Source: Thermosynechococcus sp. NK55a | Lineage (GTDB): Bacteria > Cyanobacteriota > Cyanobacteriia > Thermosynechococcales > Thermosynechococcaceae | Reading direction: 5' to 3' | DNA length: 64,000 nucleotides | NCBI RefSeq assembly: GCF_000505665.1 | Contig: NC_023033.1 | Location: forward strand, 558,001 to 622,000 | Shown: in pieces, positions 16,446 through 40,566 of the stretch | Layout of the letters: each line of letters starts with the position of its first letter | Numbering within the stretch: the first letter of the stretch is position 1 | Program-made: the position numbers and the translations under genes | The notes under the pieces: model-generated | The model's input: only the letters and a program-made list of their open reading frames with translations | What the model was told of the DNA's origin: nothing | The model's database searches: none

Positions 16446-19028
16446 ATGATTGGGAAAACCCTTGGCGGGCGCTATAAACTCATTCGAGTCTTGGGAGCTG
16501 GGAATTTTGGCCAAACGTTTCTGGCAGAGGATGTTCATCGGCCTATTCGGGCCAAGTGTGTTGTTAAATACCTGCGCCCTGCCCGTAGGGATGCGGCCTT
16601 TCTCCCCTTGGCGCGATCGCTCTTTCAGCGCGAGGCACAAATTCTAGAGCGGCTGGGCACTCATGACCAAATCCCCCGCCTCCTTGCCTACTTTGAGGAG
16701 GACAACGAGTTTTACCTTGTCCAAGACTTCGTTGAGGGTCAAGTCCTACGGCAGGAATTGTTGCCGGGCTGTGCGTGGTCAGAGGCACGGGTGATTGAGC
16801 TGCTCCAAGATGCCCTCGGAGTTCTCAGCTTTGTGCATGAATGTGGTGTCATCCACCGTGATGTTAAACCCGATAACTTAATTCGTCGCCAGTTGGATCA
16901 CCGCTTGGTCCTCATTGATTTTGGTGCTGTGAAGGAAATGGGGGTCTCCATTGGCGGCGGTACCTTAGTGGGAGATGCGAATCCGCAGACGATCGCCATT
17001 GGCACACCGGGGTATATGGCACCAGAGCAAGCCCAAGGACGGCCCCGCCCGGCCAGCGATCTCTATTCCTTGGGAATGGTGGCTGTACAGGCATTAACGG
17101 GGTTGAGTCCCCTGCAACTCACCCAAAACCCCTACGGCTGTTGGTGTTGGCAAGCCACTGAACCGGTGAGCGATCGCCTAGTGCAGTTTGTCAATAAGCT
17201 CATTCACCCTTCTCCCTATGAACGCTTTGCTACGGCTGCCGATGCCCTTGCCAGTCTGCAACAGGTAGAGGTGCCCAAATCTTTTTGGTTTCGCCTTGGC
17301 AAATTTCTCAGAACTCCCGTTCAAGACCTCTGGCGATCGCCAAAGGCAGGTGAGGCGCCACCCCGTCCACTACCCCCTGTTTCCACGCTACCCCCCAAAG
17401 CCACCGAACCCAAACCGCTGTCCTCACCACCGGCAGCCACCGCCGCCTTTCCCAACCAAGGTCGCCGTATTTTTATCAGTCACTCCAGTCACGGCACCGA
17501 TTTGCAATTGGCAAGTGCGCTCCAAGAGGCCTTGCAAAAGGCGGGTCACCAACCCTTTATGGCTAGCCAAAGTATCCGTCTCGGGGAAGCATGGGCACAG
17601 CGGATTGATCAGGAGCTCAAACAGTGTGATTTTTTTGTTCTGTTGCTCTCGCAAACGGCAGCTCAAAGTGAAATGGTGCTCGAGGAAGTCCGCACCGTCA
17701 AACAGTTGCAAGCCCACCGGGGCGATCGCCGTCCCTTTATCTTGCCTGTGCGGGTCAATTTTCCGCTGGATATGCCCTTGAACTATGAGTTGCGGGGCTA
17801 CCTGCATCGACTGCAACAGCGCTTCTGGCGATCGCCAGCGGATACCGACACCCTGCTGCAAGAAATTCTCGACTTGGTGAATGCGACCACGGCCCCTGTG
17901 GCCACCAGTAGCGATGCCCCCCAAGAAACCATTGCTGAACCCGATCAAAAGAATACATTCGTTGGTGATAGTGCCCCTGTTCCCGTGGCTGAGCCAGAAC
18001 TGCCGGAAGGGCAAGTGGAAGTGGCCTCGGCGTTTTATATTGAGCGGCCTCCTATTGAGCAGCGTTGTCGGGAAACCCTCTTGCAACCCGGCTCCCTGAT
18101 TCGCATCAAAGCTCCCCGCCAAATGGGCAAAACCTCACTCATGGCACGGCTGCTCTACCGCGCCACCCAAGAGGGCTATGGCACTGTTCCTCTCAGTTTC
18201 CAACTGGCGGATGCCCAAGTCTTCAGTGATTTGGAAAAACTACTGCGTTGGCTCTGTGCCAGTGTTGGACGGCGCCTAGGGCTAGAAAACCGCCTCAATG
18301 AGTATTGGGATGACATTTTTGGCAGTAAATATAACTGCACTGCCTATTTTGAGGAGTATCTCTTACCCAATTGCCAGAAACCGGGGACACAATTTGAGGG
18401 TCGCCCCCTTGTTCTCGGCCTAGACGAAGTGGATCGGGTGTTTGAATATCCGGAAGTGGCCAGTGATTTCTTTGGCCTGTTGCGGGCATGGCATGAGGAG
18501 GGCAAAAACCGCGATATTTGGCGCAATCTCCGTCTAATTGTGGTGCATGGCACCGAGGTTTACATTCCCCTGGATATTAACCAATCTCCCTTTAACGTTG
18601 GCTTAGCCATTGATCTGCCGGAATTCACCCAAGCACAAATTGCTGAGTTGTGCCGCCTTCACGGCCTGAGTCTCTCAGAAGAGCAGCTTCAAGACCTTCA
18701 GCACTTGGTGGGGGGGCATCCCTACCTGATTCGTCTGAGTCTTTATCATCTCGCCCGCCAAGACCTCACATGGCAGGAGCTAATGGCCAATGCAGCCTCA
18801 GAAACGGGGTTATATCGAGATCACCTGCGGCGACAGTGGTGGCATCTCCAGCAGCAAAAAGACCTGGTACCCGCCTTTAGGAAGATTCTGCAAGCAGACA
18901 ACGGCAGTGTTGTTGATAGCACTATTGGCTTTAAGCTCCACAGTTTGGGACTGATTACCCTAGAGGGGAATTTGGCTAAGGTGCGCTGTGATCTTTACCG
19001 CCGCTATTTTGGCGATCGCCTGCATTAG
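16446..19028 (+). CDS. Ser/Thr protein kinase - TIR - AAA-like ATPase fusion
   Basis: This 860-residue protein has three domains. The Hanks-type kinase (about 1-285) keeps its catalytic residues: glycine loop GAGNFGQTF (17-25), Lys41, HRDVKPDN near 137 and DFG near 157. A Pro-rich linker precedes a TIR domain (about 339-475) starting RRIFISHSS, with Glu413/Glu414 in VLEEVRTV at about the place of the NADase glutamate. A second linker leads to a STAND/AAA_35-like ATPase (about 530-860) with Walker A APRQMGKTS (near 554-562) and Walker B LVLGLDEVD (near 655). There is no membrane helix. An upstream in-frame stop at 16431 supports the ATG. A signalling or defence role is inference. Confidence 0.9.
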   Translation: MIGKTLGGRYKLIRVLGAGNFGQTFLAEDVHRPIRAKCVVKYLRPARRDAAFLPLARSLFQREAQILERLGTHDQIPRLLAYFEEDNEFYLVQDFVEGQVLRQELLPGCAWSEARVIELLQDALGVLSFVHECGVIHRDVKPDNLIRRQLDHRLVLIDFGAVKEMGVSIGGGTLVGDANPQTIAIGTPGYMAPEQAQGRPRPASDLYSLGMVAVQALTGLSPLQLTQNPYGCWCWQATEPVSDRLVQFVNKLIHPSPYERFATAADALASLQQVEVPKSFWFRLGKFLRTPVQDLWRSPKAGEAPPRPLPPVSTLPPKATEPKPLSSPPAATAAFPNQGRRIFISHSSHGTDLQLASALQEALQKAGHQPFMASQSIRLGEAWAQRIDQELKQCDFFVLLLSQTAAQSEMVLEEVRTVKQLQAHRGDRRPFILPVRVNFPLDMPLNYELRGYLHRLQQRFWRSPADTDTLLQEILDLVNATTAPVATSSDAPQETIAEPDQKNTFVGDSAPVPVAEPELPEGQVEVASAFYIERPPIEQRCRETLLQPGSLIRIKAPRQMGKTSLMARLLYRATQEGYGTVPLSFQLADAQVFSDLEKLLRWLCASVGRRLGLENRLNEYWDDIFGSKYNCTAYFEEYLLPNCQKPGTQFEGRPLVLGLDEVDRVFEYPEVASDFFGLLRAWHEEGKNRDIWRNLRLIVVHGTEVYIPLDINQSPFNVGLAIDLPEFTQAQIAELCRLHGLSLSEEQLQDLQHLVGGHPYLIRLSLYHLARQDLTWQELMANAASETGLYRDHLRRQWWHLQQQKDLVPAFRKILQADNGSVVDSTIGFKLHSLGLITLEGNLAKVRCDLYRRYFGDRLH

Positions 19029-19173: not shown

Positions 19174-19620
19174 ATGCCGTCTATGACGTTAATGTACGTT
19201 GCGCCTCAGTGGCAGACCCTAGCATTTCCCTCGACACTTTTTCTCCAACCCATCCTCGAGATTCTCATCAGTGATCTTCCCCCCCAATACAAAGACGAAA
19301 TTAGGCTCGGCCTCCAAGAAGCCCTCGTTAATGCGGCTCGCCACGGCAATCAACTCAACCCCGAGAAGTTAGTTCTGGTGCGTTATACCTTTGCGCCTGA
19401 TCAGTGCTGGTGGGTGATTACGGATCAGGGGGATGGCTTCTCCCCCCCCAGTAATGTTTCTGAAACCGCTGATGAGTTGTTGCCAGCCGCCGACTGTGAA
19501 TGTGGTCGGGGCTTATTTTTAATCTATGCGATCTTTGATGAGGTCTATTGGAATGCCCAGGGTACTGAACTGAGGCTGTGCAAGTATCTCACCCCAACCG
19601 ATCAGAATCGCTTGAGCTAG
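19174..19620 (+). CDS. RsbW-like anti-sigma factor type ATPase
   Basis: The protein has up to 148 residues; ATG codons at 19174, 19183 and 19192 are all possible starts. It is a stand-alone HATPase_c domain of the RsbW/SpoIIAB type. The N box is LGLQEALVNAARHGN, the G1 box DQGDGF and the G2 box GRGLFLI. Such proteins bind ATP and either sequester a sigma factor or phosphorylate an anti-sigma antagonist. No sigma factor or STAS antagonist is adjacent. The neighbouring kinase-TIR protein and the REC-PP2C phosphatase at 52.2 kb are candidate circuit members, by inference only. Its end overlaps convergent ilvE by 4 bp. Confidence 0.9.
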   Translation: MPSMTLMYVAPQWQTLAFPSTLFLQPILEILISDLPPQYKDEIRLGLQEALVNAARHGNQLNPEKLVLVRYTFAPDQCWWVITDQGDGFSPPSNVSETADELLPAADCECGRGLFLIYAIFDEVYWNAQGTELRLCKYLTPTDQNRLS

Positions 19621-39087: not shown

Positions 39088-40566
39088 CTATGAAGCACTT
39101 GAAGAGACTGCGGGGGTAATAGTTGCAATTTCCTGCAAGCGTTTCTTGACTTCGGCAGCATTAGGATAGCGTTCCCGAGGATCGGGGTGGGTCAAGCAGT
39201 TAATCAAATCCACCATTAGCGGATCTAAATGGGGAATGTCCTCGGCATAGAGACGATACTCACGGGTGCCCCAGCGGAAATAGGTCTCCGGTTCATAGCC
39301 CGTGAGTAAATACACCATTGTTGCCCCCAAGGCAAACAGATCTGAAGCGGGCTCGGGTTTTCCCTCCTGTTGTTCTGGTGCCGAATAGCCCACAGTACCA
39401 ATAAATGTTCCAGATTCAGAGGTTAAGACGGATGCTTTACCCCAGCCCACGAGCACGAGTTCTGTTGCTTGCCGTTTGACGTAGGGATGAATGAGATTGG
39501 AGGGACGAATGTGTAAATGCAACACAGGGGGGTCTTGCTGGTGCAGCATTTCAAGCAACTCACACACAGGAATGAGCCAACGACTGACCTCAATCACGTT
39601 CATTGACCCTTGTTTTTGAACCCGCTGCTTGAGGGATTGGCCATAGACCATTTCCGAAACCAAATAGGAATCACTGCCGCACTGAAAGGCTTCCCAAAAT
39701 TGGGGTAAGACCGGATGTTGGATGTTGCACAATTGCCGCGCTTGGCGCCGAAAGGCACGGATTTCCTCCCGTGAGGCAGCAAGACTATGTCCCTTAATCA
39801 CTGCTGCTAGGCCACTGCGCCACCCCAAATAAATATTGCTTTGACCAAGGGCACGAATAATCTGGTAGTTACCGAGGGTTTTCCAGACCCGCAGAGGCAC
39901 ACCGCAATCAATGCAAAAAATATCGTTTTCTTGGGCATGGTTGTGCTGGCAATCGGGGGGAGCACGCCACTCGCTGAGTAAATGAACTGGCAGTTGACCT
40001 GTGACTGCAAACTCAGCCTCTTCCTCCTCTTGGGCGGTGACACTGCTACTACTGGAGGTGGGGGTGCTTTCTTCGGCACGGGATGGGGGTTCGGCCGCTG
40101 TACCAATGGCTTCTTCTTCCCCTGCATAGGTGCCCTTCTCAACATCTACTAAGCGACCTTCAGGCACCGTTTCCATGCGGGCACTGGGAGTGGCAGGACG
40201 CTGATCAGAACCAAGGCGAATTTGAATATTGGGGCCAGAGCGTGCCAAGCGCAGGATGCCACCATCCGTCAAGGTTGCCTGCTGAATGCGTTTGCCATCC
40301 AAATAGGTGCCGTTAGTGCCAAGGTTGACCACTTCCCATTGCAAACCATTACGACGGAGCTCCACATGGTGACGCGACACTACCGCGCTATAGAGCACGA
40401 CATGATTATCAACTGCTCGGCCAATGCGGATAACATTTTCATTCTCAAAGGTCCAGCTTTGGACTGGGGTGGCTTGAACCGGATGGAGCAATGTCAATGT
40501 AATCACCTTGTCTAACCGCCTCTTCGTACCTGAATACACTCTAAAAGAACTAGGACATACGTTCAT
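39088..40566 (-). CDS. FHA - zinc ribbon - pseudokinase protein
   Basis: Up to 492 residues: an ATG at 40566, but GTG 40506 gives a start closer to the FHA domain. The FHA domain (about 20-120) has GR (49-50), SRHH (64-67) and NLGTNGT (81-87) for phosphothreonine binding. An acidic Ser-rich linker precedes a Cys/His cluster (Cys206, Cys218, Cys221) that may bind zinc. The kinase fold (about 230-480) keeps Lys258 but the HRD motif is HLH (350-352) and DFG is GWG (374-376), so it lacks both catalytic aspartates: a pseudokinase. It follows a zinc-ribbon FHA gene in the same operon. Confidence 0.88.
   Translation of the reverse strand: MNVCPSSFRVYSGTKRRLDKVITLTLLHPVQATPVQSWTFENENVIRIGRAVDNHVVLYSAVVSRHHVELRRNGLQWEVVNLGTNGTYLDGKRIQQATLTDGGILRLARSGPNIQIRLGSDQRPATPSARMETVPEGRLVDVEKGTYAGEEEAIGTAAEPPSRAEESTPTSSSSSVTAQEEEEAEFAVTGQLPVHLLSEWRAPPDCQHNHAQENDIFCIDCGVPLRVWKTLGNYQIIRALGQSNIYLGWRSGLAAVIKGHSLAASREEIRAFRRQARQLCNIQHPVLPQFWEAFQCGSDSYLVSEMVYGQSLKQRVQKQGSMNVIEVSRWLIPVCELLEMLHQQDPPVLHLHIRPSNLIHPYVKRQATELVLVGWGKASVLTSESGTFIGTVGYSAPEQQEGKPEPASDLFALGATMVYLLTGYEPETYFRWGTREYRLYAEDIPHLDPLMVDLINCLTHPDPRERYPNAAEVKKRLQEIATITPAVSSSAS

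Follow-up and report, generated by a model that had tools for sequence, protein, structure and literature searches.

Cyanobacteria and other multicellular bacteria harbor conflict systems built around a core STAND NTPase, to which swappable effectors such as kinase, TIR, caspase, and trypsin domains are attached (Kaur et al. 2020, PMC7159879; 2021, PMC8195603), and Trypco1 is regarded as a hallmark of such predicted systems (PMC7159879). In nSTAND2, two genes each encode a STAND NTPase, one of them equipped with a variable effector, and one partner has eroded NTP-binding motifs (PMC8195603, Fig. 6C). The same paper names an "Npun2340/2341 family" of the MNS clade. Additionally, a survey of cyanobacterial kinases from 2007 listed kinases of T. 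elongatus whose C-terminal regions it left unidentified, and TIR and AAA are never mentioned in it (PMC2176072).

The gene discussed in this article, referred to as gene A, lies in a stretch of 64,000 nucleotides from Thermosynechococcus sp. NK55a (hereafter the window; NC_023033.1, positions 558,001 to 622,000) and encodes a kinase, a TIR domain, and an AAA_35 NTPase in one chain; a second AAA_35 NTPase, carrying WD40 repeats and referred to as B, is encoded elsewhere in the genome. Neither the A/B pair, with enzymes N-terminal on one STAND-like protein and repeats C-terminal on the other, nor the kinase-TIR fusion was found described in PMC7159879 or PMC8195603, and no paper describing the pair was found in the open-licence literature on AAA_35 with TIR or WD40 in cyanobacteria.

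Domain Organization and Catalytic Residues of Gene A

The initial annotation of the window had read gene A as a single 860-residue chain of kinase, TIR, and STAND/AAA_35 NTPase, in agreement with the open frame and with three Pfam matches, all of which far exceed the curated cut-offs (Table 1). Its description of the kinase motifs as intact also holds, as Lys41, the C-helix Glu63, the HRD motif (residues 137-139), and the DFG motif (158-160) are invariant among 21 full-length orthologues. With the Lys, C-helix Glu, HRD, and DFG of Hanks-type enzymes all present, the domain is a Hanks-type kinase, predicted to be active.

Table 1. Features of gene A and its 3' neighbor, numbered from the first nucleotide of the window
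Feature	Position	Strand	Basis
Gene A, kinase-TIR-AAA_35 protein, 860 aa	16446..19028	+	Uninterrupted frame and full-length orthologues
Hanks-type Ser/Thr kinase domain, aa 10-265	16473..17240	+	Pfam Pkinase, E 2.7e-33
TIR domain, aa 342-451 (Pfam), model to ~aa 480	17469..17885	+	TIR_2, 3.4e-19
Glu414 codon, counterpart of TIR NADase Glu	17685..17687	+	Alignment to PdTIR, AbTir, Cat1
AAA_35 STAND-type NTPase, aa 519-856	18000..19013	+	Pfam AAA_35, 4.7e-147
Walker A APRQMGKT, aa 556-563	18111..18134	+	Invariant, 21 orthologues
Walker B Asp-Glu, aa 660-661	18423..18428	+	Invariant, 21 orthologues
RsbW-like HATPase_c_2 gene	19174-19620	+	Pfam match; 145 nt 3' of gene A

Over the whole chain dN/dS is about 0.06-0.14, and for the individual domains about 0.04-0.12, indicating purifying selection in all three, with the TIR domain constrained as much as the kinase and with dS almost saturated for the two most distant strains in the comparison. 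Identity in the two linkers falls to 10-40% in distant orthologues. The recurrence of the full-length chain in all 11 Thermosynechococcus genomes and in several other genera excludes an assembly join, and the invariant catalytic residues and low dN/dS demonstrate a genuine fusion of three maintained domains. Promoter and terminator scans around gene A returned site numbers no higher than those in shuffled sequence.

Two other kinase-like segments were observed. One lies within the window at about 39124-39756 on the minus strand, in a frame of 496 aa, and is a Ser/Thr kinase-like segment with 33% identity to the gene A kinase. The other, in a kinase frame of ~1000 aa (L003, G000:C1:930593-931426), carries a single in-frame TAG in G000, G025, and G026, three genomes of Thermosynechococcus, and none in the others.

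Structure and Catalytic Prospects of the TIR and NTPase Domains

The AlphaFold model of the AAA_35 region (pLDDT 89.0) was matched by Foldseek to PABY2304 (1.9e-10) and SSO1545 (1e-8), as well as to Avs3/4, Apaf-1, and RPP1 and other plant NLRs; AAA+ proteins of the ORC/Cdc6 type also appear. The earlier assignment of a STAND NTPase with Walker A and B is upheld by the invariance of both motifs and by these fold matches, and with both motifs intact and the modelled fold matching over the whole NTPase region, the domain is classed as STAND-type.

The TIR model (pLDDT 89.7) resembles RPP1, SPARTA, RUN1, SARM1, and AbTir, the best matches being mostly NADase TIRs, and non-enzymatic TIRs (TRAM, TcpB) are matched as well. 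The Glu at the NADase position, already noticed in the initial annotation, is Glu414, which aligns with the catalytic Glu of PdTIR, AbTir, and Cat1 and is kept in 21 of 21 orthologues and in 54 of 57 TIR-AAA_35 relatives. Known NADase TIRs begin the WxxxE motif with Trp; at the corresponding position, 410, A has Met, and all 57 aligned rows have Met or Leu (Val in one row). This substitution lowers the likelihood of NADase activity, which may exist in A yet cannot be assumed. With regard to the loss of the catalytic Glu and the NAD pocket, named at the outset as evidence against the proposed system, the Glu is retained and the WxxxE Trp is replaced by Met.

Distribution and Genomic Surroundings of Gene A

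The full-length chain is present in 11 of 11 Thermosynechococcus genomes and also occurs in Thermosynechococcaceae G018, G016, G012, and G014 and in Acaryochloris-like genomes (two of these split). Of the 390 genomes of the class, G042 is the only one beyond this family to have the chain intact, and G035 has it in split form. Kinase-TIR-AAA_35 proteins form a single clade on the NTPase tree (100/99), which makes a single origin of the fusion, followed by mainly vertical inheritance, probable. In G035 (L074:9731-12379), G003 (L067:8955-11614), and G002 (G002:C43), gene A is distributed over separate frames, reflecting decay or sequencing errors, and B still adjoins it.

The neighbors of gene A are an ABC substrate-binding protein, TlyA, tRNA-His, IlvE, DUF389, MEKHLA, an aminotransferase, GAPDH, and a radical SAM protein. 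A defence island around the gene in the window was ruled out, the immediate neighbors being of housekeeping type. The AAA_35 NTPase of gene A had zero matches among 50,697 phage records. The RsbW-like ATPase that the initial annotation had placed next door is indeed present, while the functional link suggested for it lacks a conserved adjacency: the gene adjoins gene A in 9 of the 11 Thermosynechococcus genomes and neither in G019 and G026 nor in any other genus examined. It was rejected as a partner of A, its adjacency being confined to those nine.

The Partner Gene and Its Association with Gene A

The suggestion that one chain constitutes the whole system was not sustained, as the conserved partner is an AAA_35-WD40 NTPase located outside the window. 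In the Acaryochloris-like genomes and G014, B starts 53-70 nt 3' of A on the same strand and encodes an AAA_35-family NTPase of ~1180 aa with WD40 repeats and one transmembrane segment between the NTPase and the repeats. The NK55a orthologue, situated at G000:C1:888985-892491, shares 43-46% identity over 1150-1180 aa with the downstream B of these relatives; its distance of ~314 kb from A counts against the two-protein switch proposed below. Walker A is kept in 44 of 47 B proteins and Walker B in all 47.

Each of the 11 Thermosynechococcus genomes has two AAA_35 domains and no more, one belonging to A and the other to B, with the two genes never adjacent, and the same unlinked arrangement of just one A and one B is found in G018, G016, and G042. 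Within the Thermosynechococcaceae, kinase-type A and WD40-type B co-occur in the same 21 of 29 genomes, B being shortened in G002 and G014. A and B were thus found either adjacent or as the sole AAA_35 genes of a genome, the arrangement by which a two-AAA_35 module was defined.

For the wider family, TIR-AAA_35 genes were fetched by similarity to A alone, blind to their neighbors. For 31 of the 34 cyanobacterial genes with readable flanks, a B gene follows on the same strand at a distance of no more than 3 kb; for 19 it is no more than 300 nt, and several B genes overlap A by 1-4 nt. Kinase-AAA_35 genes without a TIR domain (L149-L152, family f24, genus g34) have B directly downstream in 4 of 4 cases, of the WD40 type in the one scanned by Pfam. 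AAA_35 genes with neither TIR nor kinase are linked to B less often (3/8, one being a fragment of a split gene), which counts against pairing. Strong B matches number 1-9 per genome of 2.5-8 Mb, and the probability of chance adjacency is estimated at well under 1%. Tree distances of A and B are correlated (Spearman 0.62; 0.50 without the kinase clade), a value as high being reached in 0 of 2000 permutations; common species history contributes to this correlation, and, since A and B are paralogous, part of it could stem from similar inheritance.

In some loci, gaps of 0.4-2.3 kb separate A from B; a third component in these gaps was ruled out, as the gap ORFs vary between loci. In G025, B (L084, G025:C1:2216843-2220061) contains three in-frame stops within ~25 codons at Walker B and is readable on both sides, which reflects either two compensating frameshifts or sequence error; A is intact there. 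Unless it is a sequencing error, this broken B argues against strict dependence of A on B.

Exchangeable Domains in the Wider Family

In cyanobacteria elsewhere, the TIR-AAA_35 part is 50-60% identical and is joined to different N-terminal domains. The N-terminal plugs of A comprise kinase, caspase, CHAT, trypsin, and adenylate/guanylate cyclase (once C-terminal), or are absent, and the C-terminal plugs of B comprise WD40, TPR, GAF, HisKA-HATPase, FHA, amidase, and CHAT; the A tree requires at least 12 changes of plug label. Trypco1 genes lie directly 5' of trypsin-type A genes, and some relatives of the core are located on plasmids. For example, a plasmid of Nostoc sp. ATCC 53789 (L156:7494-14386) carries a row of Trypco1, trypsin-TIR-AAA_35, and AAA_35-WD40-amidase genes, and a mobilizable plasmid of Nostoc sp. 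HK-01 (L157:1320-12938) carries CHAT-TIR-AAA_35 followed by a WD-40 gene, with an FGE-sulfatase-domain gene and an ATPase a few kb away. At L116:1934-7575, the cyclase is at the C-terminus of A rather than the N-terminus, and A and B overlap by 124 nt.

Strict vertical conservation with no link to stress or defence, which had been named beforehand as evidence against the proposed system, was found in part: gene A is strictly conserved within Thermosynechococcus and surrounded by housekeeping genes, whereas relatives occur on plasmids, beside Trypco1, and with caspase, CHAT, or trypsin plugs.

Proposed Function and Competing Explanations

Gene A is best explained as the effector half of a two-protein STAND-NTPase switch of which B is the other half, a reading given a probability of roughly 0.55. 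Its basis consists of the domains, the catalytic residues, the pairing of A with B in gene order and co-retention, and the swappable plugs at the outer ends. From these we infer a physical assembly of A and B, a sensor role for B, and the direction of signalling. By analogy with STAND switches in general, the membrane-anchored B would pick up a signal through its WD40 propeller, and the AAA_35 modules of A and B would bring the two proteins together in the presence of ATP; this assembly would cluster the N-terminal parts of A, leading to proximity-driven activation of the kinase and to stacking of the TIR domains. The main effect would be kinase output, and NAD may be cleaved as a secondary effect. 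The outcome would be either stress signalling or suicide or dormancy directed against invaders. For a conflict role in the wider family speak the Trypco1 genes beside trypsin forms, the plasmid copies, and the proteolytic plugs, and against it in the Thermosynechococcus clade speak universal retention, purifying selection, and housekeeping surroundings. We lean towards resident signalling in Thermosynechococcus, since strong purifying selection and retention in 11 of 11 genomes favor a resident switch over a mobile defence gene.

A tentative alternative deserves weight, in which the TIR is a non-enzymatic assembly or adaptor domain, the kinase alone provides the output, and the pair forms a conserved module for stress signalling, not for immunity. 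It would accommodate the replacement of the WxxxE Trp by Met or Leu (Val once) in every family member examined, the genus-wide retention of a slowly evolving gene (low dN/dS) among housekeeping neighbors, and the kinase-AAA_35 genes that pair with B, WD40-type where scanned, although they have no TIR. It fits less well with Glu414, which nearly all relatives keep (54/57 and 21/21) although a mere scaffold has no evident use for it, with a TIR as constrained as the kinase, and with best fold matches that are mostly NADase TIRs, even though TRAM and TcpB appear too. Anti-phage abortive infection, with killing through NAD depletion by the TIR and with the kinase in a regulatory role or as an additional effector, seems rather unlikely for the gene in the window, which has no defence island, is retained genus-wide in place of the patchy spread usual for defence genes, and has an NTPase unmatched in the phage records. 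This explanation draws on the relatives with caspase, CHAT, or trypsin plugs, Trypco1 neighbors, and plasmid locations, on the STAND fold common to A and Avs3/Avs4, and on PADLOC PD-T4-6 models matching A, those matches being confined to the kinase (aa 1-285 at most).

It is improbable that A is self-contained, its kinase phosphorylating the TIR or the NTPase and so gating NAD hydrolysis, perhaps in concert with the RsbW-like protein. In its favor, no catalytic site of the three is damaged and the RsbW-like gene follows A in most Thermosynechococcus genomes (9/11); against this, A never occurs without WD40-type B in the Thermosynechococcaceae, the RsbW-like gene is not beside A in G019, G026, or the other genera examined, and the TIR-AAA_35 core also occurs with very different N-terminal enzymes or none. 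As the core works with such other enzymes or none, phosphorylation cannot be a general gate, and the phosphorylation-gated NAD hydrolysis envisaged in the initial annotation is purely conjectural. Equally doubtful is the notion that A and B are old paralogues, co-inherited and not working together: both contain AAA_35, and in Thermosynechococcus they are unlinked and vertically inherited, but dozens of loci with differing plugs have them as tandem, often overlapping genes with B downstream, and streamlined genomes with no other AAA_35 keep precisely one A and one B.

If A and B do form a two-protein switch and cooperate, they would represent a bacterial counterpart of the apoptosome and of TIR-NLRs in which one ATPase senses, another executes, and each has a swappable outer end. 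It is conceivable, and more speculative than the switch itself, that they exemplify a class of divided, apoptosome-like switches widespread in cyanobacteria, in which A places a swappable enzyme and a TIR on one STAND NTPase, B equips another with a swappable sensor, and both proteins co-assemble; in Thermosynechococcus, a single complex would then link protein phosphorylation with TIR signalling based on NAD, this being the sole such pair in a streamlined genome. The Thermosynechococcus pair is convenient for experiments, with one A, one B, no paralogues, thermostable proteins, and genomes of ~2.5 Mb, and with it one could ask directly if cyanobacterial TIRs and kinases under STAND control act in immunity or in ordinary stress signalling.

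Comparison with Known Systems

Three assignments to described systems were rejected. Thoeris was ruled out, although A has, like ThsB, a TIR with a conserved Glu, because ThsB_TIR scores 16.9 bits against a cut-off of 21.2 and there is no ThsA-like neighbor. PD-T4-6 of PADLOC was ruled out as the listed matches cover the kinase only, not the TIR or NTPase. In nSTAND2, as in the A/B pair, two STAND NTPase genes occur, one with a variable effector; A and almost all B proteins, however, keep Walker A and B, the NTPase family differs, and membership was ruled out, since a dead NTPase is not a feature of the pair. The Npun2340/2341 family may be the same as the A/B AAA_35 family.

The Avs proteins (Avs3, Avs4, EfAvs5) share the STAND fold with A; each of them works as one protein whose C-terminus holds the repeat sensor, whereas A has no sensor repeats. 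Plant TIR-NLRs (RPP1, RUN1, ROQ1) likewise join a TIR to a STAND NTPase, with fold matches for both, and differ in that A has no LRR, an additional kinase, a second NTPase partner, and no WxxxE Trp. The Apaf-1 apoptosome resembles the pair in its fold and in building an effector platform from a STAND NTPase that senses through a WD40 propeller; in the pair, the NTPase with WD40 is in B, the effectors (kinase and TIR) are in A, and a CARD is absent. With the STAND conflict systems (PMC7159879, PMC8195603) the family shares an NTPase core with swappable effectors (kinase, TIR, caspase, trypsin), Trypco1 beside trypsin forms, a WD40/TPR superstructure, and cyanobacterial enrichment, and the A/B pair is a variant of STAND-based effector/sensor systems.
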